64,000 nucleotides of DNA, from the IMG/VR virus record IMGVR_UViG_3300031857_000143, positions 1-64,000 of that record; one strand, given 5' to 3'. Below, piece after piece: positions 31,897 through 63,637 of this stretch (positions are counted from its first letter, which is position 1; every line of letters starts with the position of its first letter). This DNA is from a virus. The translations under genes and the position numbers were made by a program. The notes under the pieces were generated by a model, which was not told the origin of the DNA, made no database searches, and saw nothing but the letters and a program-made list of their open reading frames with translations.

Positions 31897-32227
31897 ACAA
31901 GAATTCTTGAAGTTTTGGCAAACTCACGCATGGCCGGATATCAAACCAGTGTTCTGGCGACTGTATCATGACGGTCAAGGGCAGCCTATCTGTTATTCTA
32001 TGGAAGATCTGCCAGGTACTTGGATTGACGTCACACCAGAAGAATATCAATTGGCCGATTTACGTGTGCGGGTGATAAACGGACGCATACATAAACTTAA
32101 CGGCACCACATCTCGCAAATTGGTGCATGATAATGAATCTGGTACACCTTGTCATCCTGAAGACATAACCATAGTAGTGTCGCCCGATCAAACAAACCAA
32201 AGATGGAAAATCCGCTATGAAAATTGA
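31889..32227 (+). CDS. Conserved hypothetical phage protein
   Basis: The ATG at 31889 is preferred: GGAGG (31880-31884) lies four bases before it, and it overlaps the upstream stop. The 112-residue protein reads FLKFWQTHAWPDIKPVFWRL, then PICYSMEDLPGTWIDVTPEE and VRVINGRIHKLNG. The (L/F)YSMEDLPG(T/N) and VTPEEY elements recur in small proteins of marine phages next to glycosylation genes. Function is unknown; no catalytic residues are evident. Confidence 0.6.
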   Translation: MDEQEFLKFWQTHAWPDIKPVFWRLYHDGQGQPICYSMEDLPGTWIDVTPEEYQLADLRVRVINGRIHKLNGTTSRKLVHDNESGTPCHPEDITIVVSPDQTNQRWKIRYEN

Positions 32228-33140: not shown

Positions 33141-33141
33141 T

Positions 33142-35146: not shown

Positions 35147-35160
35147 AAAAATCCTCCGTA
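35125..35160 (+). other. Hairpin across the stop codon of the TEK gene
   Basis: TACGGA (35125-35130) pairs with TCCGTA (35155-35160), and ATTTTTTT (35131-35138) with AAAAAAAT (35145-35152). A CC bulge and a six-base loop remain, giving 14 pairs. The stop TAA lies at the loop/stem edge. No T run follows, so it is not a classic terminator; it may be an RNA stability or processing element. Confidence 0.6.
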
Positions 35161-35314
35161 CCATATGCTGGATTTTACATCACCAATGCATATCATTCTA
35201 CAAGCATCTGTTGTAATCGCTTTGATAATGTCAAGTTCGAAGACACGGAATCGATCTTGGAACATACCAAAAGATTCTTCGAACTGACTGACTAAGATCT
35301 GGAAAGTACATTCA
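35147..35314 (+). other. 168-bp intergenic region with inverted repeat, no convincing gene
   Basis: This is the longest gap in the accessory operon. It holds a perfect 10-bp inverted repeat, AGTTCGAAGA (35234-35243) with TCTTCGAACT (35276-35285), and a smaller nested stem (TTGG/CCAA). An 82-codon frame (35047-35295) crosses it but starts deep inside the upstream gene and has no ribosome site. A structured leader for the radical SAM genes is possible. Confidence 0.5.
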
Positions 35315-39171: not shown

Positions 39172-40414
39172 CAGCCCTGATTTATTGAAGCCGGTGGATC
39201 TTACCGAGCGCGAAAATTTTTTATTGAAAGAATCAAAGACTTTTTGTATCTATCCCTGGATACATTTACATGCATATCCCACGGGAGAAGCCTATCCTTG
39301 TTGTCATGCAGAAATGAAAGTGGGACAGGTTGGAGATTGTAGGTCTCAGACTCTGCAAGAAATCTGGACCGGTGATGCCATGGGCCAGTTGCGCGACAAT
39401 ATGTTGCATGACATCAAAAGCAAAGCTTGCCAACGTTGCTATGAACAGGAGTCTGCAGGTTTTTTCAGTGGTAGGCAGTCGGCCAACAAGCATCATGGAC
39501 ATCATATAAAAAAGTTATCAACTAATCCTTTTGAAATGACTTACTGGGACATACGCTTTTCTAATCTTTGCAATCTCAGTTGTCGCAGTTGTGGACATAT
39601 TTTCAGCAGTTCGTGGTATCAGGATCAGGCCAAACTGGCGGGCACCGACTGGGCATCAAAGAATCGCGCTCTGAACATCGCTGGGCGAACCGCCAACGAC
39701 ATGTGGGAGCAGTTGTTGCCACACATAGATTATGTGGAGCAGATTTATTTTGCCGGTGGTGAGCCATTGATGATGGACGAACATTATCGTATCTTGGAAG
39801 AATTGGAACGCAGAGGCCGATTTGATGTGCGACTGATTTACAATACCAATTTTACCCAGGTAAGATTAAAAGATAGGTATGTGTTTGACTATTGGAAAAA
39901 ATTCGACAGCGTAGCAGTGGGAGCCAGCCTTGATGCCATGGGATCACGTGCTGAGTATATACGTAACGGTACAGACTGGCAGCAGGTAGAAGAAAATAGA
40001 CGCCGCATGATAGATATCTGCCCCAATGTAGATTTTTATATCAGTCCTACTTTGAGTATACTCAATGCCTGGCATTTACCAGATTTCCACCGACATTGGG
40101 TTGATCGAGGACTCATACGACCTCAAGATTGTAATATAAACATATTGCAAGATCCAGCATGGTATAGATTGGATATTGCGCCCGTCAAGTACAAGCAAAG
40201 ATTACGCATCAAGTTTGAGGAACACATTGAGTGGTTGCGCGGTCGAGACAGTCTTTCTCGTGTTACTGTGGGACTACAATCAGCCATAAATTTCATGATG
40301 GCATCTGATAGATCTGATCTAGTCGATACCTTTTGGCAAAAGACCCAAGAACTTGATCGAATCAGATCGCAAAACATTGCCACTGCTCTTCCTGAATTAG
40401 AGGCGCTCCGATGA
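39152..40414 (+). CDS. Radical SAM protein, subtype B, copy 1, with N-terminal SPASM-like region
   Basis: The start at 39152 is chosen because it gives a 20-base overlap with the upstream gene; earlier ATGs would overlap by over 80 bases. The 420-residue protein opens with TFCIYPWIHLHAYPTGEAYP then CC (Cys 32, 50, 51), and later ACQRCYEQES. This C..PW.......G...PCC...C..C layout is normally C-terminal in SPASM proteins but here precedes the core. The core has CNLSCRSC (Cys 140, 144, 147) and YFAGGEPLMM. It most resembles the next two genes. Confidence 0.83.
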   Translation: MTQYKYNSPDLLKPVDLTERENFLLKESKTFCIYPWIHLHAYPTGEAYPCCHAEMKVGQVGDCRSQTLQEIWTGDAMGQLRDNMLHDIKSKACQRCYEQESAGFFSGRQSANKHHGHHIKKLSTNPFEMTYWDIRFSNLCNLSCRSCGHIFSSSWYQDQAKLAGTDWASKNRALNIAGRTANDMWEQLLPHIDYVEQIYFAGGEPLMMDEHYRILEELERRGRFDVRLIYNTNFTQVRLKDRYVFDYWKKFDSVAVGASLDAMGSRAEYIRNGTDWQQVEENRRRMIDICPNVDFYISPTLSILNAWHLPDFHRHWVDRGLIRPQDCNINILQDPAWYRLDIAPVKYKQRLRIKFEEHIEWLRGRDSLSRVTVGLQSAINFMMASDRSDLVDTFWQKTQELDRIRSQNIATALPELEALR

Positions 40415-41616
40415 AGGTTCCTCACGACAAGTTTTGCGTGTTGCCTTGGATAAGCCTTGAAGCCAGTCCTATCGGCACCGTGAGACCTTGCTGTTTGTCT
40501 CGCAACGAGATAGTGGACGAACATGGTACCAAGTTCGGCCTGGGGGAAACGTCTATCCAGACTATCAGACAAAGCCAGCACATGCAAGAACTACGAAAAT
40601 CTTTCTTGCAAGGACAACAGACCCCTGACTGTGAACGTTGTTGGAACGAAGAACGTGCGGGCCGAACCAGCAAACGCATGCATACTTTGGATCGCCTGAA
40701 ACACGTCGTGGACACTGAACAATGGACAGATCAACCCGAACCCTTGATGTTCTTGGATCTCAAACTGGGTAATATATGCAATCTTAAATGCCGCATTTGC
40801 GGATCATGGTCATCATCGACCTATGCAGCCGAAGAAATAAAATATCAGCAAGAAAAGAAAAATAACTTCCATTATGTCATGATGAAGTTGGGTCGCTGGC
40901 CCAGAGAAGAACAGAGATTCTGGCAAGATCTCGAGTCTAACCTCGAAAGTTTACGATATCTTGAATTCACCGGAGGTGAACCATTCATGATACAAGAACA
41001 TTTTGATCTCCTGGCCAAGTTGGTTGATCGAGGCTTGGCTGCCAACATTGATATACACTACAACACCAATGGTACCATGTATCCTGTAGGAGCAGAAGCA
41101 CTGTGGAAAAACTTCCGGCACGTAGAAATAGCGTTCAGCATTGATGATGTGTCCGAAAGATTTGAATATCAACGGGCCGGAGCCGACTGGACTGCCGTGA
41201 ATGGTCATGTAGAACTATTCCGTCAAATGCGTGCAAGGAACAAAAATATAACCCTGCAGGTTTGTACCACGGTCAATGTGTTTAACGTGATGTATCTTGA
41301 AGATGTGGCTGCCTGGATAGATCAGCAGGATTTTGATTTTGTTTACTGGAATATGTTGCATGATGCTCCGCAATTCTGTATAGCCAATCTGCCGGCCAAA
41401 GCCAAAGAAATCACGCAGGCCCGATTAAGGAGCGGCCGATTCAGTGTCAAACACGATACTGAGATACAACGCATCATTGATTTTATGAATCAAGGTACCA
41501 GCACTGATGGTAGCGATCTTAGAAGAAGCGTCTACGAGGTCGATCAGAGACGCGGACAAAATCTCAATCAAGTGGCTCCCGAATTTGCATTTGCTATAGA
41601 TTATGATTTCCTCTAA
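40411..41616 (+). CDS. Radical SAM protein, subtype B, copy 2, with N-terminal SPASM-like region
   Basis: The 401-residue protein begins KFCVLPWISLEASPIGTVRP then CC, followed by DCERCWNEERAG. The radical SAM core has CNLKCRIC (Cys 123, 127, 130) and LEFTGGEPFMIQEHF. The CERCW block resembles auxiliary-cluster ligands. The ATGA overlap at 40411-40414 couples it to copy 1. It ends with a YEVDQRRGQNLNQVAPEF segment equivalent to the C-terminal helix of its neighbours. Substrate unknown. Confidence 0.83.
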   Translation: MKVPHDKFCVLPWISLEASPIGTVRPCCLSRNEIVDEHGTKFGLGETSIQTIRQSQHMQELRKSFLQGQQTPDCERCWNEERAGRTSKRMHTLDRLKHVVDTEQWTDQPEPLMFLDLKLGNICNLKCRICGSWSSSTYAAEEIKYQQEKKNNFHYVMMKLGRWPREEQRFWQDLESNLESLRYLEFTGGEPFMIQEHFDLLAKLVDRGLAANIDIHYNTNGTMYPVGAEALWKNFRHVEIAFSIDDVSERFEYQRAGADWTAVNGHVELFRQMRARNKNITLQVCTTVNVFNVMYLEDVAAWIDQQDFDFVYWNMLHDAPQFCIANLPAKAKEITQARLRSGRFSVKHDTEIQRIIDFMNQGTSTDGSDLRRSVYEVDQRRGQNLNQVAPEFAFAIDYDFL

Positions 41617-42904
41617 ACCTAACACCTTGTGCCTTGCGCCGTGGACACACACTTATCTTTCGCCGCAGACTGAGCGAAGGATGTGTTGTGCCAGTAGAGA
41701 GCCTGCTCAAAATTTCCAGCAATACATTGACACAGCTGCAGGCACCGGTCGTTATATTCCTATTACATTAGACGACCATTGGAACAGCGAGCACATGCGT
41801 AGTGTGCGTCGTCGCATGATGGCTGGCGAAATCTTGCCCGAGTGTGAAGTTTGCAATGAAAAATTGTTAAACACAGACGTTTACAGAGATTATTTCAATC
41901 GTTTGTTTGCACACAAATATGAGCAGGCCATGGCATCCACAGCCGAGGATGGATCCACTACCATGCAACCGGTGAGCTGGGACTATAGATTTTCAAATCT
42001 TTGCAATTTCAAATGCAGGATGTGTGGTGACATGTTAAGTTCGGCCTGGGAAAGTGAACAGAGACAGCATAACATGATTGACTGGTCTAATACCAAAAAC
42101 AACTGGATGCTCCCCGCCGTCAGAGCACAAATAAGTAAGTTTCAAGACACCCAGATAGAACAAGAGTTTGCTGATGCAGTGGAACAGCATCGTGTGGAAG
42201 AGGTTTACTGGGTGGGCGGCGAACCGTTGATGTACGAACAGCATTGGCGGTACATGAAAAGAATAATTGACCTGGGTGACGGGCCCAAACTCTATGCCAG
42301 ATATAACACCAATCTTTCTCGTATCCACTATCGTGGGATTGATCTTTATGACGATATTCTTGGACATGTTCGCGACTGGCAAATCTGTGCCAGCCTTGAC
42401 GGAACCGGAGCCACAGGAGAATACATCCGAACCGGACTCGACTATGAACAATGGCGACATAACTTTGCCCGAGGATTGGACCTATGCAAGAATCGCCGCC
42501 AGATGCGAATCGATTTCACACTCACTTTACCTGGACTGTTTGAAATCAGAAGAATACAAACGCTCGCTGACGAATTCGGAGTTGACATCCTTGCCAAAGT
42601 AGTGTTTGGGTTTTCACCCGATATAGTGATGAGTCCTCTTGCATTGCCACGATGGCTTCTCGACAAGAAAATCAATAATTTGCTGGAAGATTTACCACCC
42701 GGGGCGTTAAAAGATGTGCTGTGTCAATTGAAACATAGGCCTACTTTCCAGGAAGCATGGCCAGATTCCTGGCAACAAGGTCTTGTTGATGGCAAAAGAC
42801 GTGTGTTAAAATTAGAGTCTATACGAAAAGATACATACACCTGGAATGATATTACCAAAGAGGACGAAGAAATACATGCATGGTGGCAAGAAATATCCTG
42901 TTGA
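41603..42904 (+). CDS. Radical SAM protein, subtype B, copy 3, with N-terminal SPASM-like region
   Basis: The 433-residue protein starts TLCLAPWTHTYLSPQTERRM then CC, followed by ECEVCNEKLL, so the N-terminal cysteine layout is kept while the sequence is diverged. The core has CNFKCRMC (Cys 134, 138, 141) and YWVGGEPLMYEQHW. An insertion of ~40 residues lies between the two. It overlaps the upstream gene by 14 bases and the next one by 29. It is the last of five radical SAM genes in 7.6 kb. Confidence 0.83.
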   Translation: MISSKPNTLCLAPWTHTYLSPQTERRMCCASREPAQNFQQYIDTAAGTGRYIPITLDDHWNSEHMRSVRRRMMAGEILPECEVCNEKLLNTDVYRDYFNRLFAHKYEQAMASTAEDGSTTMQPVSWDYRFSNLCNFKCRMCGDMLSSAWESEQRQHNMIDWSNTKNNWMLPAVRAQISKFQDTQIEQEFADAVEQHRVEEVYWVGGEPLMYEQHWRYMKRIIDLGDGPKLYARYNTNLSRIHYRGIDLYDDILGHVRDWQICASLDGTGATGEYIRTGLDYEQWRHNFARGLDLCKNRRQMRIDFTLTLPGLFEIRRIQTLADEFGVDILAKVVFGFSPDIVMSPLALPRWLLDKKINNLLEDLPPGALKDVLCQLKHRPTFQEAWPDSWQQGLVDGKRRVLKLESIRKDTYTWNDITKEDEEIHAWWQEISC

Positions 42905-43958
42905 AATAGATCTGATAGATCGTCGATCACAGCATGTCATCACAGTAAAAATTGATGTCATTGATCATAATCTGGGTCGTAAGTGGATACAAGCATTGGA
43001 TCATGTGCTATTCAACGAGTTACATTTGGAAAAAAATTATTGTTTCCTCGGCTTTGCTGACAGCGATCGAGATGGCCAGATGATCTTGGATCGAGTCAAC
43101 GCAAGCATTTTATATATCAATGATGCCGACATTGGTTACCATATTGATGATTGGTTTACTATGGCCAACACCATGACAGACGAACCCCAAGGCAATCGTA
43201 CAAAAGGCAGGAACATCGTACAACACCGTCTCAACATGCTCCATAGATATTTTGAAGATTTACAGGGCAGTAGCGGCCGCATGAGTGATTTCTACATCAA
43301 GGCGGATCACGAAATAAGATGGCATATCCGGCAACTTAATCTACTGTGCCACGAATTCGAGTCTTGGGCCTTGTCTTATCGCAAGCAGATCGAGGCCCCA
43401 GATTGGCAAAGGCCCAGCCAACTCATGTGCTGGCTCAGTGCTCCACGTTTTGCTTTGGAAATTGAAGATCTTGATTTGTTCGGGGTGGACACTATCAATC
43501 GTGATCTTGGCGGCGTATACATAGGCGTGAACAAAGCCGTGGGCAAACATCATTGGGAAGTGTTCCAGGATGAAGGACGTGATAGCAGGATCGGAGAATT
43601 GACAACCAGCGCCTTGCGCAATCAGTCCGAAGCAGCCGCAGACTTTGATATAGAGTGGGGGCGCAATCCCAAAGATTTCCCCTGGCAGACGAAAATGTTG
43701 GAAGACTTCCGACATTGGCTTACCATCAATGGGTTTGACCCTGAGGATCCTGAATTGACCATTGGCCATCCTAAGATAGCACAGGTAGATCTAAAGGTCT
43801 CTTTTGGTACAGAAGATCCGCAAAAAATCTGGGCAATGTTGAACCAACATCTTGACGTAAGTGAAGTGCGCACCTTGCGCCATAGGGCACATTATGCTTA
43901 TCACTGGAGTGACGAGGATTACATACAGAGACAGATTGAAATTTTGAAACAAGGATAA
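42876..43958 (+). CDS. Unknown protein linked to the radical SAM cluster
   Basis: ATG 42876 (361 residues) is preferred over 42846, since it gives the shorter overlap. No known family is recognised. Visible features are NYCFLGFADSDRDGQMILDR, then an ADIGYHIDDWF acidic stretch, RHIRQLNLLCHEFE-type helices and a C-terminal SFGTEDPQKIWAMLNQHLD. It is rich in His, Asp and Trp and looks soluble. Its position directly after the radical SAM genes suggests a substrate or accessory protein. This is inference from place only. Confidence 0.55.
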   Translation: MHGGKKYPVEIDLIDRRSQHVITVKIDVIDHNLGRKWIQALDHVLFNELHLEKNYCFLGFADSDRDGQMILDRVNASILYINDADIGYHIDDWFTMANTMTDEPQGNRTKGRNIVQHRLNMLHRYFEDLQGSSGRMSDFYIKADHEIRWHIRQLNLLCHEFESWALSYRKQIEAPDWQRPSQLMCWLSAPRFALEIEDLDLFGVDTINRDLGGVYIGVNKAVGKHHWEVFQDEGRDSRIGELTTSALRNQSEAAADFDIEWGRNPKDFPWQTKMLEDFRHWLTINGFDPEDPELTIGHPKIAQVDLKVSFGTEDPQKIWAMLNQHLDVSEVRTLRHRAHYAYHWSDEDYIQRQIEILKQG

Positions 43959-43961
43959 AAT

Positions 43962-44063
43962 ATGAACTGGTTTAGAAGATTGGTAGCCAAAATTAAATTA
44001 GAAATTCGTTATCGTAGAAAGCTCAAAGAACTGCGCAAACGCGACCCTTTCATTTACAAATGA
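43962..44063 (+). CDS. 33-residue basic peptide between the radical SAM block and carbamoyltransferase
   Basis: The ATG at 43962 opens a 33-codon frame that ends in an ATGA overlap with the carbamoyltransferase start. The peptide is very basic (MNWFRRLVAKIKLEIRYRRK, then KELRKRDPFIYK) and would form an amphipathic helix. The RKRDPFIY ending recalls tiny proteins of marine phages, by memory. A ribosome site AAGGAT lies six bases before the ATG. Overlap and length make it a likely gene. The function is unknown. Confidence 0.65.
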   Translation: MNWFRRLVAKIKLEIRYRRKLKELRKRDPFIYK

Positions 44064-45541
44064 AACACATTTTAGGAGTTTCGGCGGGTTTTCATGACGC
44101 CGCGGTCAGTATCGTGCGTGGTGATGGGGAGATCGTGTTTGCTGGACACAGCGAACGATACAGCAAGATCAAGAATGATCCCAACATTCATCCAGCGCTC
44201 ATGGAAGAATGCTGTGAATGGGATTATGATACCGTGGCTTTTTATGAACGTCCATGGATGCACAACATCCAGCAATGGAGATCGGGGCAAAAGTTGTATG
44301 GACCATGGACAGCGAGCGGTGCGCTGAAAAAGCATCTCGGCTCATGGTATCAACATCCAGCTCATCGTGAGTTGTGCTTTGCCCATCACCTCAGTCATGC
44401 CGCGGCCGGATTCCAGACATCACCATTTGATCAGGCCGCAGTAGTGGTCATCGACGCCATTGGCGAACTTGATACTGTGTCGATTTATAGTGCTGCCTAC
44501 GATAACCAAGGTCGTGCGCACTATAAAAAAATGTGGGGACAACGATATCCACACTCAATAGGGCTATTTTATTCGGCCATAACCAAGGCAGTGGGACTGC
44601 GACCCATGGATGAAGAATACATCACCATGGGCATGGCAGCCTATGGTAATCGACTGGGGTGTGCATGGATGCGAGATCAGTTTGTTGAAGATGATATTGC
44701 TATGCAATTCAAACAAAATCTGCACATTGGATTTGATGATGAGTTGAGTTTTGCCAGCAAGGAAGATATCGCGGCATCGGCGCAGGCACTGGCAGAACAT
44801 TTAATCAAGTCAATCATGCGTCGTGCCAAAGAATTGACTGGCTGCGAAAACTTAGTTTACATGGGCGGCGTCGCTTTGAACTGCGTGGCCAATGCGCATC
44901 TCGGCAAGTATTTTGATAGAGTTTGGATCATGCCCAATCCCGGTGATGCTGGTAGCAGTCTTGGTGCAGCCGCATTAGCTCATGGTGGTCGCCTGCGTTG
45001 GCGAGATGCGTATCTTGGACACCGGATATCCGGAGATTACCCTGTCAAACCTTTGTTGGATCATCTGCTCCGAGACAAGATAGTAGGAGTAGCATCAGGA
45101 AGAGCCGAATGGGGACCACGAGCCTTGGGCAATCGTAGTTTGTTAGCCGACCCGCGCGGGTGGGAGATCAAGGATCGAGTGAATGAAATCAAACGCAGAC
45201 AGAAATTTAGACCGTTCGCACCGGTCATATTGGAAGAACTGGCTGATGAGTATTTTGTTATGTCTCTTGGGTGGAATCGTTGTCGCTATATGCAGTCAGT
45301 CGCTCATTGCCGCGAGCCTGATCGTTTTCCTGCTATATGCCATGTCGATGGAACCAGCCGAGTACAGACAGTTCCAGCAGATGGCTCGGGCATCAGACAG
45401 TTGTTAGAACAATGGTACCTGCTCACGGGCTGTCCCATGCTTTTGAATACCAGCCTCAACATCCGTGGAGAGCCCATGGTCAACGATCGATCAGATGCTG
45501 ATAGATTTGAAAAGAACTATGGTGTCGTGGTTTGCTCATGA
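44060..45541 (+). CDS. O-carbamoyltransferase, NodU/CmcH/TobZ family
   Basis: The 493-residue protein starts ILGVSAGFHDAAVSIVRGDG, the typical Kae1-like opening. It has the metal-binding FAHHLSHAAAGF, the GGVALNCVANAHLG region and the C-terminal domain with EWGPRALGNRSLLADPR and KFRPFAPVILEE. These enzymes use carbamoyl phosphate and ATP, through a carbamoyl-AMP step, to carbamoylate a sugar or other hydroxyl. Family lengths run 480-620, so this one is near complete. A carbamoyl-sugar product fits the surrounding glycosyltransferase genes. Confidence 0.9.
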   Translation: MKHILGVSAGFHDAAVSIVRGDGEIVFAGHSERYSKIKNDPNIHPALMEECCEWDYDTVAFYERPWMHNIQQWRSGQKLYGPWTASGALKKHLGSWYQHPAHRELCFAHHLSHAAAGFQTSPFDQAAVVVIDAIGELDTVSIYSAAYDNQGRAHYKKMWGQRYPHSIGLFYSAITKAVGLRPMDEEYITMGMAAYGNRLGCAWMRDQFVEDDIAMQFKQNLHIGFDDELSFASKEDIAASAQALAEHLIKSIMRRAKELTGCENLVYMGGVALNCVANAHLGKYFDRVWIMPNPGDAGSSLGAAALAHGGRLRWRDAYLGHRISGDYPVKPLLDHLLRDKIVGVASGRAEWGPRALGNRSLLADPRGWEIKDRVNEIKRRQKFRPFAPVILEELADEYFVMSLGWNRCRYMQSVAHCREPDRFPAICHVDGTSRVQTVPADGSGIRQLLEQWYLLTGCPMLLNTSLNIRGEPMVNDRSDADRFEKNYGVVVCS

Positions 45542-45744
45542 ATGAAAAATCTCAACGCAGTTTTTTAAAAACCGTGTCGTGGCGGGTGACTGGAAGCACC
45601 AGCACTGCTGTCATCGCTTGGCTCGTCACCGGAGATATAGGTGTGGCCGGTGCACTTGCTCTGATACAGGCCATGACTAATACTGTGCTTTATTACCTGC
45701 ACGAACGGTTGTGGAACAGAACAGATTTTGGTCGTCAGAAATAG
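45538..45744 (+). CDS. DUF2061 small membrane protein
   Basis: The ATG at 45538 overlaps the upstream stop (ATGA). The 68-residue protein reads RSFLKTVSWRVTGSTSTAVI, then AWLVTGDIGVAGALALIQAM and NTVLYYLHERLW: two hydrophobic segments with the DUF2061 signature KT.SWR..G and YYLHER.W. Members are integral inner-membrane proteins of unknown function that often sit with sugar or sulfate-activation genes. It closes the plus-strand operon; its last 10 bases overlap the opposite gene. Confidence 0.85.
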   Translation: MNEKSQRSFLKTVSWRVTGSTSTAVIAWLVTGDIGVAGALALIQAMTNTVLYYLHERLWNRTDFGRQK

Positions 45745-46781
45745 TTTTCTAAAGGGCCGCGCCTACGCAAATCCTGTGTCACGCAGGATATTCCACCATC
45801 CCAAAAATATTTGTGCCTGAGTTCGCAGATGATTGGTGTAATACCGTGTTTTTCACAAAGATCGAACACGGCTTTGTTGTAGCCGCTGAATACCACGTGT
45901 TGCTCGTCTAACACCAAACAGTTGACATCAAACACTGTCTCTTTAACAAAACCAGTCCAATCCTTCAAATATGTGTCAACAAATCGTGCAAAGTTTTTTG
46001 TAGGTTTGACCCCGGGCAAGTACCAGCGGCCATCCATGGTCTCGTAGCGGAACTTGCCCACCGCCATGGCAGCATTGATCGAACTGTCATTGATCCGCAA
46101 GACCTCCCAGCCAGGAAAATCCTGTTGATAATTGATATTGGAGTCATGCATGGTACTGAGTATCAAGCCGGGTTTTAAAATAGCAAAAACCGCATCTCCA
46201 TGCCCTTCGGTCACAGCACGTCTTAGCCGAAAACGATCATCCAACACATTTTCTCTGATCCATTCCATTTGCTCAGTGGTCAACCATTGACTGTTGTCAA
46301 AAAATATGTCGGTGCCCACTCGAACTATGCAGCTTGCCACAGCACTGGACATTACATGATCTGCATTCCATCCCCCGCAATGCGGATCGATCACTGTGCC
46401 GGGTTTGGTGGCATCGATGACATGGCAAATCGGATCTAATTCGCGCAGACTCAGCACACGCAACAGATGTTCGCCCAGGGTGATTTGCCAATCTCTTGGT
46501 GTCAATGGCGGCAAAGGTGCGCTGGTAGGAGATTCGCTGGTTTGGACGTTGATCCAGTAATCTTTGTCTGGTAGGTCGGGTCTGTAGACTTCGGCACCAT
46601 ACTGTATGATTGTCTGAGTGAGATTGTCAAGGTCTTCTGCACTTTCTTGTAAAATTTGCTGAAGTTGTCCGCGCACCTGCGGATCTTCGACAAAATCAAA
46701 GTAATCTGCGGTATACACACGTCCGACTATGACTGCTTCCAGAGGTTGCCAAGAAGTATAGGCTTGTACTGGTAAATTCAT
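45735..46781 (-). CDS. Amidinotransferase-fold enzyme (glycine amidinotransferase-like), copy 2
   Basis: The 348-residue protein, the same length as copy 1, has QPLEAVIVGRVYTADYF at the N-terminus, the catalytic-His block TEGHGDAVFAIL and the Cys block FWDGGISCVTQDLRRRG. Between these, DFPGWEVLRIND matches TFPGWDIYNINHH in copy 1. Overall similarity is modest, so this is an old duplication or two separate acquisitions. Copy 1 is on the plus strand about 11.6 kb away. It forms an ATGA overlap with the TEK gene that precedes it on the minus strand. Confidence 0.75.
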   Translation of the reverse strand: MNLPVQAYTSWQPLEAVIVGRVYTADYFDFVEDPQVRGQLQQILQESAEDLDNLTQTIIQYGAEVYRPDLPDKDYWINVQTSESPTSAPLPPLTPRDWQITLGEHLLRVLSLRELDPICHVIDATKPGTVIDPHCGGWNADHVMSSAVASCIVRVGTDIFFDNSQWLTTEQMEWIRENVLDDRFRLRRAVTEGHGDAVFAILKPGLILSTMHDSNINYQQDFPGWEVLRINDSSINAAMAVGKFRYETMDGRWYLPGVKPTKNFARFVDTYLKDWTGFVKETVFDVNCLVLDEQHVVFSGYNKAVFDLCEKHGITPIICELRHKYFWDGGISCVTQDLRRRGPLENYF

Positions 46782-47935
46782 GTTTGTAATCTCATGGCAA
46801 GTTTACTTAAGGCCGGATTGCGCATGGAAAGAAATAATTCTTGATTGTGTGCAATATCTTCTTGACATCGATGATGCCATGCCGGCCCCAACTGTCCACG
46901 CAGGTCTTTAAGCAAGTTTCGGATGCGTAAATATCGTTCTGTGGTGTCCTGGATGGTATCATAACTGGAATCTATCACTGTATCAAAAGTGCGATATCCG
47001 TTATCGCGCAACTGTGCCAGGCTGCCCGCGGTGCCAATGATCACAAAAGGCTGTCCATACTTGATACATTTATAGGTTTTTTCGGTCAAGAAACTTCCGC
47101 CGCTGCCATCAGCGTCCATCATGGTCTCGACTATGATATGGCACCAAGATTGGGTGTAGAGATCGGTATTGACCAAGGCATGATCGTTGTGAACATCACT
47201 ATCTGCACCGTCTACATGATAAGGACCCTGAGACAAAAACTCTTGGGTGATTTGATCCCAATAGGGCAACTCACTGGTACGCAGGGGATTTACTACGTCG
47301 GCGTCTGGCATGGTAAAATCTGTGTTGTAACTCCACAGGCTGTTGTCCAGCACATGCTGGGCTCGTAGATCGGCCACGACATTGGCACGCCATGTCTTAT
47401 GAGTGCGATTCAGCAGGCTGAAATCTCGTTGCGGCATTGTTTTGTCTCGAGGTGATTGATTCCGATTGACATAGCGGAAAAAATATTCATGATCGGGGAA
47501 GTGATAGAAATTTTCTATGATGGTAGCCGCTGTGTTGGCGCTGACAAATAGATAGGTCTTTGGTAGATCATGTAAATCGCAAAGATGATCCATGCGGAGT
47601 TTTATCTTGCTTGGTGCATCTGCTTCATGGTAATAAAACAGCACACGCACACGAAATTTTTTTATTGAGTCGCGCACATGGGAGCTCATTAATGCAAAAT
47701 AGTCACATTCAAAATCATGCCACGCCAGCGACACTGGATACCACGATCCTCCGGGGCAGACATCAACCGTGTGGTGTGCCACTGGTATGCCTTGTGTTTG
47801 CAAGTACATCAGCAAACGCAACGGAGTGGTCCGCGGCCACACATGATCAAATTCATTGGGATGCAGATCCGGCCGGGCCAAATTTGGGTAGCCTATGCGA
47901 TACTGCCCAAGATTGTCATAGCAAAAATTTACCAT
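46778..47935 (-). CDS. TEK-motif glycosyltransferase-like protein, copy 3
   Basis: The start at 47935 overlaps the preceding gene by seven bases and gives 385 residues; an upstream start would overlap by 67. The family block is FLTEKTYKCIKYGQPFVIIG followed by NGYRTFDTVIDSSYDTI. LNRTHKTWRANVVADL in the middle resembles the corresponding region of copy 2. The N-terminal ~180 residues (DHVWPRTTPLRLLMYLQT) are distinct. It is co-transcribed with copy 4 and the second amidinotransferase-like gene. Confidence 0.5.
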   Translation of the reverse strand: MVNFCYDNLGQYRIGYPNLARPDLHPNEFDHVWPRTTPLRLLMYLQTQGIPVAHHTVDVCPGGSWYPVSLAWHDFECDYFALMSSHVRDSIKKFRVRVLFYYHEADAPSKIKLRMDHLCDLHDLPKTYLFVSANTAATIIENFYHFPDHEYFFRYVNRNQSPRDKTMPQRDFSLLNRTHKTWRANVVADLRAQHVLDNSLWSYNTDFTMPDADVVNPLRTSELPYWDQITQEFLSQGPYHVDGADSDVHNDHALVNTDLYTQSWCHIIVETMMDADGSGGSFLTEKTYKCIKYGQPFVIIGTAGSLAQLRDNGYRTFDTVIDSSYDTIQDTTERYLRIRNLLKDLRGQLGPAWHHRCQEDIAHNQELFLSMRNPALSKLAMRLQT

Positions 47936-48999
47936 TGCTCGATCATTTGTTGTGTTTCCTTCCAAAGCACCTGTTGGAAATCTCCATAAAACCATTCAAA
48001 GTTGTGTTTGATTATCGGCCATGCTCGCTCCTGCGCTTGCCGCATCTGTGTCGGTGACCACTGTTGAATCTGTTGGCATATATCTGCTATTGCAGATATT
48101 CTCTTATCGTCATCGAGATTGTCATAACTTTCGTCCCAGATGCAATCAAAGGTTTTAAATCCGTATCTACGTAGATAAGCCAGACTGTGTTTGGCAGATA
48201 TTAACAAAAACGGCTGTTGTAAAACTATCGGTTTGAATGTTTTTTCAGTGAGATGGATTCGATCGCTGACGTACACAGTTTCTGTGACCACGTGACTGAA
48301 GCATCGCATGGCTTCATCCCAAAAATCAATCTTGTGGCTGTCATGTGCGTGATTTTTTTGTGTGTCGATGATCAACGGTAAAGAGATTGAAGTTGGGAGG
48401 TTCCATCCATGATCTCTCATCAACTCCTGCACTGATTGCCCGGAATAAGGACAAGTTGCTGGAAAACTCATCATGCCATCGGAAAGTAGACCTCGCTGGG
48501 AAAATTCGTGTAGTAAACTCAGACGATGTTGCCGGTTACCGCTGACTATGTTATTGGGACAGATATAAAGTTTGTCAAAACTGCGTTGCATCCACGGCTG
48601 ACCAAGGTAGCTGTGATTGTATCCTCGGTACCAATCTAACGCTGCCCAACCATGGAAGAAATAGTGTGCGATATTTTCAATTTTATAAGTATCTTGCAAC
48701 CATTGTACATCTTTGCTATCACATTCGCTGGTAACCAGAGTTAGTGTGGTATGGTAATTGGGACGTCTCCGTGTTCGATATATCTTGCAAAACTGATCGA
48801 AAAATACCTTGGCCGAATCTTTATACACGGGTTCTTGATCCCAAAACAAAATCCTATGCCCCTGCACTATAGCAGGATAGGCTACCAAGTCATGGAAATC
48901 TTTTGAACCAAAAGGGTCAAACCAATGCAGCGCCACAGCGGATTTCTGTCGCATTGCCGAAGCAAATACGTTATAATAAATTTCATCTATTCTAATCAT
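47929..48999 (-). CDS. TEK-motif glycosyltransferase-like protein, copy 4
   Basis: The 356-residue protein has HLTEKTFKPIVLQQPFLLIS followed by YGFKTFDCIWDESYDNLDDD, the full family signature. The N-terminal domain (GHRILFWDQEPVYKDSAK, ENIAHYFFHGWAALDWY) differs from the other copies. Its start codon (48997-48999) shares two bases with the plus-strand start at 48998, so the upstream signals lie inside the opposite gene. A TCTAAATA sequence (late-box-like) lies at 49013-49020 on the minus strand. Confidence 0.5.
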   Translation of the reverse strand: MIRIDEIYYNVFASAMRQKSAVALHWFDPFGSKDFHDLVAYPAIVQGHRILFWDQEPVYKDSAKVFFDQFCKIYRTRRRPNYHTTLTLVTSECDSKDVQWLQDTYKIENIAHYFFHGWAALDWYRGYNHSYLGQPWMQRSFDKLYICPNNIVSGNRQHRLSLLHEFSQRGLLSDGMMSFPATCPYSGQSVQELMRDHGWNLPTSISLPLIIDTQKNHAHDSHKIDFWDEAMRCFSHVVTETVYVSDRIHLTEKTFKPIVLQQPFLLISAKHSLAYLRRYGFKTFDCIWDESYDNLDDDKRISAIADICQQIQQWSPTQMRQAQERAWPIIKHNFEWFYGDFQQVLWKETQQMIEQW

Positions 49000-50602
49000 G
49001 TTTGACGTTTTTTATTTAGATCGACCTACTGGACTCTTTCCGCATGAACAGCGGGTAGATAGTATTGAACACGCCCGAGGACTCAGCCGCACAAGGTACT
49101 TATGGATCGTGGATAGGCATAATGACTATTCTCAGTTCGATTGGTTGTGGGAACCCGTGCCCTGGCAGGCCAATCAAATACATGTATGGCCCAGCCAACA
49201 CCAGGACAGTGGTGGGACCATGTTAGTGCCCAAGCATGCTGTGACCGATATCAATCGTGAACACAGCATGGTTCCAAGGCGTGGCACTGTGCCTCGATTA
49301 CATATCAAACACAATCCTCGCAGTCCCGATCAGGGTGATATCAACACACGTTTTATTTCAGACTACCTTGGAACACTACGCAGAGCCTTGAATCGCGTGG
49401 ATTGGCATTACTGTTGGGTGACCACGGACGTGTGTGATTATACAGATTTTGATTGGACCTGGCACCCCAGCGAATGGCAGGATCGCATGTTACATGTCTG
49501 GGCCAGCAACGAACAAAAGTTTGGTGACACTTTCTATGTGCATGTACCCAGTTTTTTGGACGGCAGTAGTGACCTTGCTCTATTGGAATGGTATGATACT
49601 ATAAACTTCGTATCCCACAGTGTCAGCAGATCAAGACCACCGGCCATCGCCTATGAAACTGATTCCGTGGTACCGGCTGTGTGGCAACATGAGTTCACTG
49701 AACCCGTGGTTGAATTTTATCGCTATGAGTCCGCAGAATCTGTGCCTACTGTCAATCTTTGGAGACCTGCAACACGATCTGTGCATCCTCTGCGTCGGGG
49801 AGGAGAATCTGTGTTGGTTCCTCGCGATGCTAAAAATTTCCTTGACACCCAACTATATGATTATCCAGTGATAGATAGACAGAGCCAGCCTCAGACCAGC
49901 CATGCTATGGACATAGTGTTTATCAGCAACGGAGAATACGGGGCAGACCATAATTGGAAAATTTTGGAACAGGCAGTGGCTGGCACTCCAAATCGTTTGC
50001 ATCGCGTGGACGGTATAAAAGGTAGGGTGGCGTCATACCAAGCGGCAGCCAAATGTAGTGGCACCGATTGGTTCTTTGCTGTGTTTGCCAAGTTGCAGGT
50101 AAATGAAGATTTTGATTGGTCTTGGCAGCCTGATAGATTACAAGAAGCCAAACACTACATCTTCCATGCGTACAATCCAGTGAATCATCTTGTGTATGGA
50201 CATCAGGCCATGATCGCATACAACCGGAGATTGGTCTTGGAAAACACCGGCCAGGGCCTGGACTTTACTCTTGATCAACCTCATGAAGTAGTACCGATAA
50301 TATCAGGCACGGCTTACTATGACAATGATCCCTGGACCTGCTGGCGAACTGCTTTCCGTGAGGCGTTGAAGCTGCGCCACAGCCTTCCTGATGTTGAGAA
50401 TGAATATCGCTTGACTGAATGGTTAGACAAAGGTGACGGTGTCAATGGATACTGGTCAACAAAAGGGGCCAATGATGCAGTTGATTATTACGATCGAGTG
50501 CAGGGTCGATTTGACGACATCAAGAAAAGTTACGAATGGGATTGGTTGGCATCGTATGCCATGATGCTACATCCTCAACTGTTTACACAGTCCAAGACCT
50601 GA
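48998..50602 (+). CDS. Repeat-containing glycosyltransferase-like protein
   Basis: The 534-residue protein has three related units, near residues 40, 140 and 365, each with D(Y/E)..FDW.W.P..(W/L)Q followed by H(V/I)(W/F)......G....VP. The last unit follows RVDGIKGRVASYQAAAKCSG then TDWFF, the same order as in the gene at 32217, where a DXD-type motif is present; here the corresponding site reads FAVFAKLQ and lacks a clear DXD. It may be a multidomain transferase with partly degenerate repeats, or a binding protein. Its end overlaps the opposite aminotransferase gene by 28 bases. Confidence 0.55.
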   Translation: MFDVFYLDRPTGLFPHEQRVDSIEHARGLSRTRYLWIVDRHNDYSQFDWLWEPVPWQANQIHVWPSQHQDSGGTMLVPKHAVTDINREHSMVPRRGTVPRLHIKHNPRSPDQGDINTRFISDYLGTLRRALNRVDWHYCWVTTDVCDYTDFDWTWHPSEWQDRMLHVWASNEQKFGDTFYVHVPSFLDGSSDLALLEWYDTINFVSHSVSRSRPPAIAYETDSVVPAVWQHEFTEPVVEFYRYESAESVPTVNLWRPATRSVHPLRRGGESVLVPRDAKNFLDTQLYDYPVIDRQSQPQTSHAMDIVFISNGEYGADHNWKILEQAVAGTPNRLHRVDGIKGRVASYQAAAKCSGTDWFFAVFAKLQVNEDFDWSWQPDRLQEAKHYIFHAYNPVNHLVYGHQAMIAYNRRLVLENTGQGLDFTLDQPHEVVPIISGTAYYDNDPWTCWRTAFREALKLRHSLPDVENEYRLTEWLDKGDGVNGYWSTKGANDAVDYYDRVQGRFDDIKKSYEWDWLASYAMMLHPQLFTQSKT

Positions 50603-51675
50603 TCAATGACATACTCGACTTCTAAATCAGTGAGTTCTGGATAGATTGGCAAACTCAACACCCGACGGCTTAAAGCACTGGCACAACTAAGGATGTCAGG
50701 TCCTTGGTATTGTCTAAATACACCCATTTCGTGCAACGGTTGTGAATAATGAATCTTGGTTTCAATCTTGCGGATTGAAAGGTTTCGTTGTAGTATGTCT
50801 CGATTATTAACATCAATCACAAATTTGTGACACGAATGATCATGATAGTTATCATTGTCGATGAGGCATCTGATTTCGGTATTTTTTAATTTTGAACGCC
50901 AGTATCCTGATATGTCCTGGCGCCGCTTTTGCCATTGGTCTATGTATCTTGATTTGACCATTAGATGAGCACAGTCTATTTCACTCATGCGACTGTTGGT
51001 TCCGGTAGTGGCGTGCGACGATTTTCCATTGTCTCTCCAAGCACGAACAAAATGGAATACATCGCTGTCATTGGTGACCACAGCCCCACCGTTGCCATAA
51101 CAAGGAAGATTTTTCATTGGATCAAAACTTATCGCGGCAGCCTTGCCAATGCGTTGGGCATCGGCAGATAACCAATGCTGTGCCGCATCTTCTATGATTA
51201 TCTTGTCTGATAGAGTCCATTGCCTCCAGGTGTTGATATCTCCTAAGTGGGTTATGCTGGCTCCATAGAGACCCACCAATACCGCCGCTTGATAACTGAC
51301 ATCCGGAATTTTTCTGACATCAAAAACTCCATTATGATCTGTGTCGATAAACTGTATGTTCCATCCTGCACGCATAAAAGCATTGGCAGTGGCCGCATAA
51401 GTCAGACTGGGAATCAATACAGTGGGTGGATCTGGTGACAGTTGGTCTGTGGCATAATATTCTGCGATGGCTTCCAATGCCGATGTTCCAGAATGCACGC
51501 AGACTGCATACTTGACGCTGTTTTTCTTGGACAGCCAATTTTCAAATTCTGCTGTGTTGTTACCGTTCATTAACTGTCCGCTACGCAAGACTTCATCGGT
51601 AGCATCGAGTATTTCTTGCCGGAGATTGCTATACTGTTTTTTTAGACCAGTAAACGGAATTGTTAAGCCATTCAT
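50575..51675 (-). CDS. DegT/DnrJ/EryC1-type PLP aminotransferase
   Basis: ATG 51675 is chosen because it gives MNGLTIPFTGLKKQYSNLR, the normal start of this family; an ATG at 51699 would add eight residues. The 366-residue enzyme has CVHSGTSALEAIAEYYATD, VLIPSLTYAATANAFMRAGW, EDAAQHWLS and SFDPMKNLPCYGNGGAVV, whose Lys is the PLP-binding residue. It would convert a keto-sugar nucleotide to an amino sugar. The first 47 bases overlap the upstream epimerase gene, so the two are probably co-translated parts of one sugar pathway. Confidence 0.88.
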   Translation of the reverse strand: MNGLTIPFTGLKKQYSNLRQEILDATDEVLRSGQLMNGNNTAEFENWLSKKNSVKYAVCVHSGTSALEAIAEYYATDQLSPDPPTVLIPSLTYAATANAFMRAGWNIQFIDTDHNGVFDVRKIPDVSYQAAVLVGLYGASITHLGDINTWRQWTLSDKIIIEDAAQHWLSADAQRIGKAAAISFDPMKNLPCYGNGGAVVTNDSDVFHFVRAWRDNGKSSHATTGTNSRMSEIDCAHLMVKSRYIDQWQKRRQDISGYWRSKLKNTEIRCLIDNDNYHDHSCHKFVIDVNNRDILQRNLSIRKIETKIHYSQPLHEMGVFRQYQGPDILSCASALSRRVLSLPIYPELTDLEVEYVIDQVLDCVNS

Positions 51676-52606
51676 AGTATCGCTGGAAACCTTCTTCAAT
51701 GTCTACCTTAGGATCATACCCGAAATCTCTACGAGCGGCTTCGATGTTGAGCGCACCTCTGCTGGGGAAGTCGGCATCTTTGTCACGCACTTCTACCGAA
51801 CCTTGCCCCACGATTTTTACTGCCAGATTGGCCGCATCCAACAGGCTCCAACTATGGCTCTTGGTTATATTGTAAGGTTTATTATTGGCAGTAGGACTCA
51901 ATGCTGCCGCAACGATACCATCAGCGGCATCTGCCACATAGGTAAAGTCCAGGGTTTCAGATGCACCGTTGACTTTGAGTGTGCCACCACGCATGGCTGT
52001 CAGCAGAAACTTTGAGATAACACGATCTTCAACATCGAGTTCTCCGTATACAGCGGAAGGACGGATAATAACATGATCAAAACAACCACGCCGACTATAA
52101 TCTTTGACAAGCCACTCTCCTGCCAGTTTCATTATGCCATACTGCCCTTGTGGACGGCATATAGCATCTTCTCGTACATCATCAGTAAAATCACCATAGA
52201 CCATGCTGGACGAAATATACACAAATTTACTTACCTTGTGCTTTGCCGCAGATTCGCACAGGTTCAGCAATCCCTCGCTCATGGCTCTGCTGCCTGTCAT
52301 GGGGTTGACATTCACAACTTTTTGTCTGGGAAAACTGGCCATGTGTATGATTACTTCGGGTTTATAGTGACTGAGCAACCAATCTATACCTGGTTGATCG
52401 GCTATGTCAATTCTATGCGTGCGTAGATCCATTTCGGGTATCTTGGCCCGACGCTCACGGATAAGATAATCTAATTCCGCTTGTGGAATGATTCCGTAAT
52501 TGGTCTGGGTGTCTGTAATGCACACTTCATGCCCAAGGTCCAGCAGTCGGCGCACCACATTGTGACCGATCAGACCCAGTCCACCGGTAACTAAAAATCG
52601 TGTCAT
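51629..52606 (-). CDS. NAD-dependent sugar epimerase/dehydratase (SDR)
   Basis: ATG 52606 lies in a TAATG overlap with the upstream gene and starts MTRFLVTGGLGLIGHNVVRR, the glycine-rich GxxGxxG NAD site. The 325-residue protein continues with DIADQPGIDWLL, VSKFVYISSSMVYGDF, and YGIMK, the catalytic Tyr-Lys pair, followed by RPSAVYGELD. These are extended SDR traits seen in UDP-glucose 4-epimerase and 4,6-dehydratase families. The exact substrate cannot be read. With the DegT enzyme it forms an amino-sugar branch. Confidence 0.87.
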   Translation of the reverse strand: MTRFLVTGGLGLIGHNVVRRLLDLGHEVCITDTQTNYGIIPQAELDYLIRERRAKIPEMDLRTHRIDIADQPGIDWLLSHYKPEVIIHMASFPRQKVVNVNPMTGSRAMSEGLLNLCESAAKHKVSKFVYISSSMVYGDFTDDVREDAICRPQGQYGIMKLAGEWLVKDYSRRGCFDHVIIRPSAVYGELDVEDRVISKFLLTAMRGGTLKVNGASETLDFTYVADAADGIVAAALSPTANNKPYNITKSHSWSLLDAANLAVKIVGQGSVEVRDKDADFPSRGALNIEAARRDFGYDPKVDIEEGFQRYYEWLNNSVYWSKKTV

Positions 52607-52839
52607 TATCCCCATTTCAAAAAGTATTCTGTAGCTTTGATGTCTGGCAATATACCCGTAACTGTGACCAAAGAGCCAAATGATCTAAAGTCTGGCCTGA
52701 CATCGTAGGAAAGATCATGGGCATTTTCCATGACCCATTTGCCTTGCTCGGTTTTTTGCCAATCAAACAAAGGCGGAGCCACGTAAATGTCAACATCATC
52801 TACATCACCCATGGTAAAGGAATGGAATACTATCCTCAT
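52606..52839 (-). CDS. Small conserved phage protein
   Basis: The 77-residue protein starts MRIVFHSFTMGDVDDVDIYV, then FDWQKTEQGKWVMENAHD. This FTMGDV(D/E)D(P/V)DIY...P...W....G.W(V/I)M pattern belongs to a small protein of T4-like phages, by memory. No enzyme motif is seen. An extended -10 sequence (TGTTATAAT, minus strand, about 52848-52856) lies just ahead of the start, so it may have its own promoter downstream of thyX. Confidence 0.7.
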   Translation of the reverse strand: MRIVFHSFTMGDVDDVDIYVAPPLFDWQKTEQGKWVMENAHDLSYDVRPDFRSFGSLVTVTGILPDIKATEYFLKWG

Positions 52840-61521: not shown

Positions 61522-62484
61522 TTATTCGGGACGGATTTTTTGTGTGGCAGGCAAAAGATCTCGCCTGATTTTTTCGGCATATGATTTCACAGATACTGGA
61601 TCCAATCTCCGCTCGTTTACTATGATAAGATTAGCATCGGCCCAGCGCCTGTACTTATCGCTACGTATGGCCCGACTGAATTCTCTCTGATACCAGGCAA
61701 CGGCAGCCGGATCAGTTTGTTTTGGCAAGGTCACGAACCAACCAGAATAGATTTCAAATCCTGGTAACACGTCTGCCAAGATGCTGACTTCAGATAGGGC
61801 TGTCAAGCGAGCCGAGGATGTGACAGCAATTATCTTTACCTTGCCAGAATCCACGGCAGCCCTGGCCGCGGTCACTGGTACGAAACTGTAATCGACTTCT
61901 TTGCTGGCCACTGCTAACACAGTCTGTCCAGCGTTTTGATAGTTCACATGCTGGATCTTGTCACGATCTCCGCTGATCACATGCATGAAATATTCGTAAG
62001 CGATTCGTCCTGTACCTCCGGATATAGCCACGTTGACTGGACGTTGTGGATTTTTGAAATAGGTCACCAAGTCACGGGGTGAGTTGATCTTGCTGTCTAT
62101 GTGGGCTATCACAGCCGAAGGAGTTTCTCCCATGATAGCCAGATTAATGAAACTATCCCAGTCATAGGTTTTAGTGGACTTTTGCCAGATATCATTGGCC
62201 ACGAACAAGCTGACCACGCTGGGCACCGAGATATGGTATCCATCAGCGGGCTGGGTAGACAAGTGATTCTGTGCTATGACACCATCGGCTCCAGGGCGTG
62301 TTTGTATCAAGAACTTGACATCTGGATTGTTTTCTGTGACTATCTCAGTGACTTTACGAAACACTTGCTCGTTTGTGCTGCCGGCGCTGTAACCAATATA
62401 CACAGTGATGGATCGTTGTGGTGTCCAAGCCCAGGCTGGCCAAGTGACCACGATGATCAAAATAGAAACAAAGATTTTTTTCAT
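61522..62484 (-). CDS. TctC/Bug-family periplasmic substrate-binding protein
   Basis: The 320-residue protein begins with a signal peptide (MKKIFVSILIIVVTWPAWAW, cleavage probably after AWA). It continues VYIGYSAGSTNEQVFRKVTE, TRPGADGVIAQNHLSTQPAD, then AISGGTGRIAYEYFM and a VKIIAVTSSARLTALSEV segment, the order of tripartite tricarboxylate transporter binding proteins (TctC/Bug). Bug proteins bind carboxylates such as citrate and are very numerous in betaproteobacteria. No TctA/TctB membrane genes are near. In a phage this is an accessory gene that may alter host uptake or be a captured host gene. The tmRNA terminator lies just upstream. Confidence 0.8.
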   Translation of the reverse strand: MKKIFVSILIIVVTWPAWAWTPQRSITVYIGYSAGSTNEQVFRKVTEIVTENNPDVKFLIQTRPGADGVIAQNHLSTQPADGYHISVPSVVSLFVANDIWQKSTKTYDWDSFINLAIMGETPSAVIAHIDSKINSPRDLVTYFKNPQRPVNVAISGGTGRIAYEYFMHVISGDRDKIQHVNYQNAGQTVLAVASKEVDYSFVPVTAARAAVDSGKVKIIAVTSSARLTALSEVSILADVLPGFEIYSGWFVTLPKQTDPAAVAWYQREFSRAIRSDKYRRWADANLIIVNERRLDPVSVKSYAEKIRRDLLPATQKIRPE

Positions 62485-62500: not shown

Positions 62501-62523
62501 GAAAAAGCCCGCCAAGGCGGGCT
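62501..62523 (-). terminator. Rho-independent terminator of the tmRNA gene
   Basis: On the minus strand AGCCCGCC-TT-GGCGGGCT (62523-62506) is followed by TTTTT down to 62501. It is a strong, compact stem, placed just after the tmRNA coding piece and before the TctC-like gene. Confidence 0.92.
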
Positions 62524-62564
62524 GGTGTTTTCTGTTTCTTGGTATGTCCTACCTCAGCAAGCCG

Positions 62565-62597
62565 TCAAGCGGCCAATGCGTAAACGTCGTCGTTGGC
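62565..62597 (-). other. tmRNA tag reading frame
   Basis: Resume codon GCC at 62597, tag ANDDVYALAA, stop TGA at 62567-62565. The stop lies in a small hairpin (GCCG/CGGC), as in tmRNA helix 5. Confidence 0.92.
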
Positions 62598-62599
62598 GT

Positions 62600-62770
62600 T
62601 TATGGTTTTTCGCTGATTACGTCAGTCGACTCTCGTGTTGTCTGCTCACTTACTCTTTGCACAATCGATCCTGGTTCGGCCCCATCAACAGAAGACTTGA
62701 TCTTGAGATGTTCTGGACACATACCCCAGCCTACGATACGTTGCCAATCGCGTTCGGTATATAGTTCCAT
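62600..62770 (-). CDS. Possible 56-residue ORF inside the tmRNA intervening segment
   Basis: An ATG at 62770 with a good ribosome site (AGAGAGG, eight bases away) opens 56 codons starting MELYTERDWQRIVGWGMCPE. The frame covers the segment between the tmRNA halves and then runs through the 5' half, stopping two bases before the tag. Its first ~30 residues look protein-like; the rest must also serve as RNA. It may be a real overlapping gene or chance. Confidence 0.3.
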   Translation of the reverse strand: MELYTERDWQRIVGWGMCPEHLKIKSSVDGAEPGSIVQRVSEQTTRESTDVISEKP

Positions 62771-62864
62771 GTCAAATCCTCTCTTGGTGGAGCCGGCGGG
62801 TGCTGCCCCCGCGTCTTGCACATTTTTCGGCTTGCTTCATACAACAATATCACTACTGTACTAC

Positions 62865-63031: not shown

Positions 63032-63637
63032 TTAATCCACTATGGGTCCATTACCGTTATTAAATCCAACCACGCCGCCCTCCTCTTTGATGCGTTTGAC
63101 AACGTCTTCGAATAAGATAGGTGCAAAGTCCGGAGTCTGTTCCACACACACGCAATGATACCGTGTGTCAATTTCCGCACCATACAATACTTCGCCTGTG
63201 CGAGCATCTACACCACGAGGCCGCCTCACACGCTGATAGTGCAAGTGCCCGTGTATGTTCACACCAAAGCGGCCCAATGACGCTTCGTGAACTGGAATGT
63301 GGCTCAGGATCATGCCATTCATCACATGATAGGCCCTTAGTTCACGGAAGTATTGATTGTATTCGGTGTCACGGAAGATGTCGTGGTTACCACGGATCAG
63401 GACCTTGTCACCATTGAGCCTGCCTAAAGTCTTCAAGGCTTTACGGTTGATTACCGCATCGCCCAAGTGATATACTTTATCGTTGGGTCGAACTCGTTCG
63501 TTCCAGGCCTTGACCATGTCTTCGTCCATCTCTACAGGATCGTTCCAAGGACGTAGTTTGGTTCCATCGTCGCGGGTAAAGCGGCACACGCCAGCGTGAC
63601 CAAAGTGCGTGTCGCTAACTAAAAATACGCTAGGCAT
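63032..63637 (-). CDS. Calcineurin-like metallophosphoesterase
   Basis: The 201-residue protein has all metal motifs: VSDTHFGHAG (DxH, Asp 9), VYHLGDAVI (GD), LIRGNHDIFRD (GNHD), MILSHIPVHEA (His) and NIHGHLHYQR (GHxH). It matches the small phosphoesterases of phages that may act on nucleotides, phosphodiesters or polynucleotide ends. The length is normal for the family. A ribosome site AAAGGAG lies 6-7 bases ahead of the ATG. It follows the 53-residue gene. Confidence 0.88.
   Translation of the reverse strand: MPSVFLVSDTHFGHAGVCRFTRDDGTKLRPWNDPVEMDEDMVKAWNERVRPNDKVYHLGDAVINRKALKTLGRLNGDKVLIRGNHDIFRDTEYNQYFRELRAYHVMNGMILSHIPVHEASLGRFGVNIHGHLHYQRVRRPRGVDARTGEVLYGAEIDTRYHCVCVEQTPDFAPILFEDVVKRIKEEGGVVGFNNGNGPIVD

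Follow-up and report, generated by a model that had tools for sequence, protein, structure and literature searches.

A permuted tmRNA gene in a T4-type phage whose intervening segment probably doubles as a small protein gene

Few bacterial RNAs have been studied as thoroughly as tmRNA. Where its gene is circularly permuted, the intervening segment (IVS) is described as absent from the mature RNA and is normally regarded as waste. Permuted genes are also found in phages: Methylophilales phage Melnitz, a lytic aquatic myophage that infects OM43, encodes a two-piece tmRNA, and of the 133 unique phage tmRNA structures in a phage database from 2021, 53 were called two-piece, 50 of these 53 being aquatic (PMC9004378). 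The 2025 tmRNA database, the source of the Rfam model RF04321, lists 79 unique phage tmRNAs, and notes extra content in a permuted tmRNA IVS twice, a tRNA-Ala in one case and a repetitive element in another (PMC11915505). Our search of the open-licence literature yielded no account of protein genes lying in the IVS of a tmRNA, though an earlier report elsewhere is possible.

The locus described here lies on the minus strand of a 64,000-nucleotide stretch (the window), positions 1 to 64,000 of the 65,734-base IMG/VR virus contig IMGVR_UViG_3300031857_000143. It shares with the RF04321 and RF01850 families the gene order, the tRNA-like domain, acceptor pairing across the IVS and a tag ORF, but differs in that its IVS appears to be protein-coding, whereas none of the parsed bacterial IVSs is filled by an ORF. 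Given Melnitz and the earlier surveys of phage tmRNAs, the permuted tmRNA as such is of an already known kind. A first, sequence-only reading had called it unusual in a lytic-type phage, which holds only in part, as permuted tmRNAs had already been reported in aquatic myophages (PMC9004378) and were found here on dozens of viral contigs. That reading also suggested, as putative roles, ribosome rescue during the decay of host RNA or the retagging of proteins. The Melnitz tmRNA (MZ577097, L500) resembles that of the window in carrying a Shine-Dalgarno (SD)-ATG ORF in its IVS, which is 142 nt long with GGAG and an ATG at +19 opening the ORF MFKWLSKTRLVVITRDYFRERNRKADAKIPKYLSGTRSVYDGG...; it differs in being alpha-type and in being followed by a glutamine riboswitch. 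SsrA is the sole annotation over this ORF in the Melnitz record, and the accompanying paper makes no mention of it (PMC9004378). Group I introns that carry homing endonuclease ORFs, among them tmRNA_intron (PMC11915505), are likewise segments removed from a structural RNA that bear a protein gene. Viral IVSs differ from them in lacking self-splicing and ligation, so that the pieces stay separate, and in a cargo that is mostly non-endonuclease. The tRNA-Ala and repetitive-element IVSs (PMC11915505) also hold extra content, but are single cases and not protein genes.

The sequence-only reading had proposed a circularly permuted phage tmRNA at this locus and named an Infernal search of Rfam as its check. 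A cmscan of the whole window (Rfam 15) matched RF04321 (tmRNA_permuted) at 62846-62565 with 130.7 bits (E 2.7e-25, full model 1-213; gathering cut-off 47 bits) and RF01850 (beta_tmRNA) at 62897-62500 with 114.2 bits (E 5.4e-34; gathering cut-off 84 bits). Together with the relatives and the phage context, these matches bear the proposal out. Taken on its own, the acceptor piece gets its best score from alpha_tmRNA, whereas the 5' piece is nearer to beta_tmRNA. ARAGORN did not detect the window tmRNA, probably because of its T-loop, GGCAGCA.

The acceptor (3') piece (62785-62846 within the RF04321 match) contains the T-stem GCGGG/CCCGC (62812-62808/62800-62796), the T-loop (62807-62801), the acceptor 3' strand CGGCUCC (62795-62789), A73 (62788) and an encoded CCA (62787-62785). 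The 101-nt IVS follows (62684-62784), its ends set by the CCA and by the pairing of CGGCUCC with GGGGCCG (62683-62677), the acceptor 5' strand. The latter belongs to the 5' (mRNA-like) piece (62565-62683, continuing further downstream), which also comprises the D-loop CCAGGAUCGAU, the pseudoknot 1 region and the tag ORF (62565-62597) with its resume codon GCC (62597-62595), tag (62597-62568) and UGA (62567-62565). All seven acceptor pairs form, G3-U70 included, and the tag ANDDVYALAA, recovered both by translation and in the cmscan alignment, has an Ala resume codon and a hydrophobic ALAA-type end. In all of this the earlier reading proved accurate: the CCA end at 62785, the start of the 5' piece at 62683, the seven pairs with the G3.U pair, the encoded ACCA and the tag are exactly as it gave them. 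Where it placed a strong terminator, a terminator-like hairpin AGCCCGCC-UU-GGCGGGCU and a U-run are present (62502-62523, stem 62523-62506); the stricter T rule of a minus-strand scan omits the hairpin. No sigma-70 promoter was found near the tmRNA, and an exact 20-mer of its 5' piece had no hit in the viral contigs. The tag ANDDVYALA with its resume context occurs in GTDB genomes at three gamma-type loci, of which the two that were scanned both fall below the permuted tmRNA cut-off.

In the minimum free energy (MFE) fold, the T-stem and the acceptor stem both form, and a further stem, of 11 bp, links the ends of the IVS. The overall energy of this fold is only modestly better than that of shuffled sequences (z -1.8), so the case for a tmRNA rests on the covariance models and the relatives. 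All seven acceptor pairs form in 152 of 170 unique viral permuted tmRNAs, in which the 5' start was chosen without using the pairing; when the partners were shuffled, the four variable pairs all formed in a mean of 32 and a maximum of 46 of the 170. The T-loop of the window is unusual and departs from UUCRANY, which is canonical and typical but not obligatory, the GGCRGUA class being common among permuted tmRNAs. A GGC-type or near loop is present in 37 of 41 parsed bacterial permuted tmRNAs, so it does not exclude membership.

The IVS starts with AGAGAGGAUUUGACAUG, an SD motif followed by an ATG 14 nt past the CCA, and both positions match those in other viral IVSs (ATG offset 14). This ATG opens a 56-aa ORF, MELYTERDWQRIVGWGMCPEHLKIKSSVDGAEPGSIVQRVSEQTTRESTDVISEKP (62600-62770), whose predicted protein begins MELYTERDWQRIVGWGMCPEHL... 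and whose UAA stop lies immediately 5' of the resume codon. Approximately the first 29 codons lie inside the IVS and the remaining 84 nt overlap the mature 5' piece, which places the ORF in a minority class whose frame runs on in this way. Its SD, GAGGA (62777-62781), falls within the 11-bp stem, formed in both the MFE and centroid folds by the 5' arm AGAGGAUUUGA (62782-62772) and the 3' arm UCAAGUCUUCU (62690-62700), and the predicted probability that it pairs with the final 25 nt of the IVS is 1.00. The apparently protein-coding IVS is the most unusual feature of the locus and was overlooked by the reading that recognised the permuted tmRNA around it.

The nearest relative found (L088/L201, a 192-kb contig) encodes an AAA ATPase 92% identical to that of the window and a tmRNA 5' piece 85% identical; its 103-nt IVS has an SD, an ATG and a homologous ORF, MEKYTQREWDRLVGIG... 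More distant YYTE relatives occur in the IVSs of L202-L206, which have MPVDMYYYTESEWNRLGCGPLPPERN... at the equivalent position, and of L003/L064. The IVSs of L003/L064 and L222 contain the motif with no clear ATG start, and that of another near relative, L074, is of similar length and non-coding. A scan of viral contigs with the aligned motif also retrieved standalone small genes (L212-L216, L218-L221 and L223; for example MQKNEYYTQRDWDRVVGWGTVPTKYQYPHL...), in whose records no permuted tmRNA was detected. A profile built from the standalone proteins only was searched against 1737 translated frames, taken from both strands of 175 IVSs. The ORFs of L088 (E 5.9e-10) and the window (E 3.8e-8, 29.8 bits) rank top, and no other frame passes 0.01. 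The window ORF is identical to a standalone homologue at 12 of 18 residues (67% over 18 aa), a similarity that reaches past the eight motif residues that were taken from the IVS ORFs for retrieval and make the motif match itself partly selected. By the profile match, the window ORF belongs to an unnamed family of small phage proteins, the YYTQRDWDRVVGWG family. PHROGs has no family for it, and tblastn gave no significant match in isolate phages for the IVS ORFs of the window and its relatives. The pN/pS between the window and L088 is 0.56, a value from 19 codons and a single relative within a short IVS coding stretch (29 codons). For the window, the coding claim is carried more by homology and position than by the substitutions in the ORF itself.

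Coding IVSs are widespread in related viruses. A blind set was assembled from viral loci gathered by resume-site sequence alone, ignoring IVS content, and yielded 39 unique parsed IVSs. An SD-ATG ORF fills 9 of the 19 that are at least 70 nt long (shuffle mean 0.4) and 8 of the 10 that are at least 120 nt long (shuffle mean 0.1, never more than 1 over 200 shuffles), the shuffles keeping the first 26 nt of each IVS. With two further scans, the total reaches 111 unique coding IVS ORFs in approximately 52 protein families. Set B requires an SD-like motif after the CCA and set C an SD plus ATG, so these sets show diversity and frequency is taken from the blind set only. The parsing script demands canonical features, making the counts lower bounds; duplicate contigs were collapsed by identical IVS, and the parsed set may include a few false parses. 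Three loci (L022, L053 and L125) look like such false parses and were given no weight.

Several cargo proteins are recognisable. These include a thioredoxin with a CGPC active site (L320, Pfam E 4e-21), DUF6356 (L010, E 5e-12; L431, E 5e-11), PGDYG (L299) and an HNH/homing endonuclease (L313, phrog_655, E 7e-15). The 124-aa ORF in the L344 IVS has no Pfam match; its YHAT...GL...YLA pattern is reminiscent of ADP-ribosyltransferase-like proteins. Infernal, applied again to 12 coding-IVS loci, scored every one above the RF04321 cut-off. Variants of these ORFs, where available, differ mostly by synonymous changes. The median pN/pS is below 1 in each of the 16 testable IVS ORF families, and the ORFs of L010 and L017 differ by eight synonymous and no non-synonymous changes. 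The ORF stop lies one base short of the mature 5' end in 33 unique cases and twelve bases short of it in 32 (65 of about 105). Many viral IVSs are non-coding, and the two kinds can occur on nearly the same tmRNA: L016 and L020 have an identical 130-nt 5' piece with a 68-nt non-coding IVS in one and a 267-nt IVS (78-aa ORF) in the other, and L190 and L320, 95% identical in the 5' piece, have IVSs of 59 nt and 268 nt (the thioredoxin). As a bacterial control, 398 Pseudomonadota genomes were searched. Permuted tmRNAs were present in 135, and 50 loci were examined, comprising the 30 best-scoring and 20 of the longest. The 41 that parse have a median IVS of 37 nt (maximum 126), and an SD-ATG ORF fills none of them. 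Judged from these comparisons, the IVS in related phages appears to be a cargo slot for unrelated small genes.

We consider it likely that the permuted tmRNA gene in the window comes from a T4-type phage and that its IVS also serves as the gene of a small protein, with maturation and translation probably competing. A single precursor would be transcribed through the locus. Its halves would join via the 7-bp acceptor stem, the 11-bp IVS stem would keep both cut sites together, and host RNase P would cut at 62684/62683, with a 3' endonuclease or trimming acting at the encoded CCA. The released two-piece tmRNA could then be used by host AlaRS, EF-Tu and SmpB to add the tag ANDDVYALAA; the 65.7-kb record contains no smpB, so the host protein would presumably be needed. 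The IVS would not be waste, since it would supply the SD, ATG and ORF for a small YYTQRDWDRVVGWG-family protein. The folded, processable precursor would hide this SD in the IVS stem. Because the processable fold is also the SD-hidden fold, maturation and translation may compete, and competition would be stronger in the window, where 84 nt of the ORF overlap the mature 5' piece. In 70 unique short-leader coding IVSs, the median predicted probability that the SD pairs with the 25 nt at the 3' end of the IVS is 0.97; the corresponding value for 39 longer-leader coding IVSs is 0.38. Against this model, the SD may be buried simply as a consequence of forming the stem.

That the locus is a tmRNA pseudogene or a captured host remnant, functionless in the phage, is very improbable. 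The divergent T-loop, the ARAGORN miss and the absence of smpB from the record would fit it; against it stand all seven acceptor pairs, the G-U identity pair, ACCA, an ALAA-ended tag and a terminator-like hairpin. A GGC-type T-loop with the matching D-loop class is moreover present in 46 of the 170 viral permuted tmRNAs, and the 5' piece of L088 remains 85% identical. It is also unlikely, if less so, that this is an ordinary phage permuted tmRNA in which only the RNA matters and the ORF is a chance frame or decaying relic. The shortness of the IVS-coding part, the same-length IVS of L074 without such an ORF and the many non-coding viral IVSs favour this explanation, as does the frame into the 5' piece, open in several relatives merely through RNA conservation. 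Against it, the exact frame is homologous to standalone phage proteins, L088 has a homologous ORF with SD and ATG, and the general pattern is of coding under purifying selection.

A third explanation leaves the coding claim untouched and concerns the coupling step only. The IVS may simply be an insertion-tolerant site, in which small genes are harmless and kept because the segment is cut out, with no regulatory link between cargo translation and tmRNA maturation; we judge the chances of this to be even. The sharing of a single position by dozens of unrelated protein families, the coding and non-coding IVSs on nearly identical tmRNAs and the presence, as in introns, of an HNH/homing endonuclease among the cargo are all consistent with tolerance. 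The SD and stop positions are nevertheless tightly fixed (stops at -12 or -1), and the short-leader SD lies nearly always in the stem linking the processing sites, which suggests more than tolerance. A broader version may be offered tentatively, and we judge it to be somewhat improbable: the phage permuted tmRNA would be a dual-function locus, its IVS a dedicated cassette slot and its stem a means of hiding the ribosome-binding site, so that a transcript makes tmRNA or cargo, or both in turn. If both are made in turn, the excised IVS would be a mini-mRNA with the SD at its 5' edge and the stop codon at its 3' edge.

The IVS proteins, dozens of unrelated conserved small proteins from uncultured phages and one cultured phage, would constitute a hidden class of phage genes, which annotation pipelines miss because the genes lie under the tmRNA call. 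A coding IVS suggests a route by which ribosome rescue and protein production could be coupled on one transcript. More speculatively, the protein families in this fixed slot are candidate host-takeover or counter-defence factors.

Other features of the related tmRNAs also vary. The tag ORFs of L190, L191, L192 and L320 are 24-31 codons long (e.g. ANADTFDFSAMSFTGNTVRGAANESRFALAA), apparently through a tag insertion that contains a hairpin, both arms of which differ together between L190 and L192. The window (62565-62812) and L088 (10758-11041) differ jointly in T-loop and D-loop class despite their 85% identical 5' pieces, GGCAGCA occurring with CAGGATCGAT in the window and TTCGATT with CTGGTTTCGAC in L088. 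The two classes go together across the 170 viral tmRNAs, a sequence pattern that suggests coupled replacement or recombination of the tRNA-like core. In Ruegeria phage vB_RpoS-V10 (L506, 542-975), a GOLLD RNA (RF02032, 151.4 bits) lies just upstream of the permuted tmRNA.

The source record encodes T4-type baseplate wedge and hub proteins, and window DNA matches phage isolates in short conserved patches only. A calcineurin-like phosphoesterase (63032-63637) is encoded upstream of the tmRNA. Directly downstream is a TctC-family (tripartite tricarboxylate transporter receptor) solute-binding-like protein (61522-62484, minus strand), for which no match was found in isolate phages. Elsewhere in the window, sequence motifs point to glycosyltransferase-like and several radical-SAM-like proteins (30333-45541, plus strand, and 45735-52615), the same cluster encoding a NodU-type carbamoyltransferase (44060-45541) and an epimerase (51629-52615), which suggests surface-sugar modification by the phage. 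The tail/baseplate region includes a single ORF of 4780 codons (12443-26785, plus strand).
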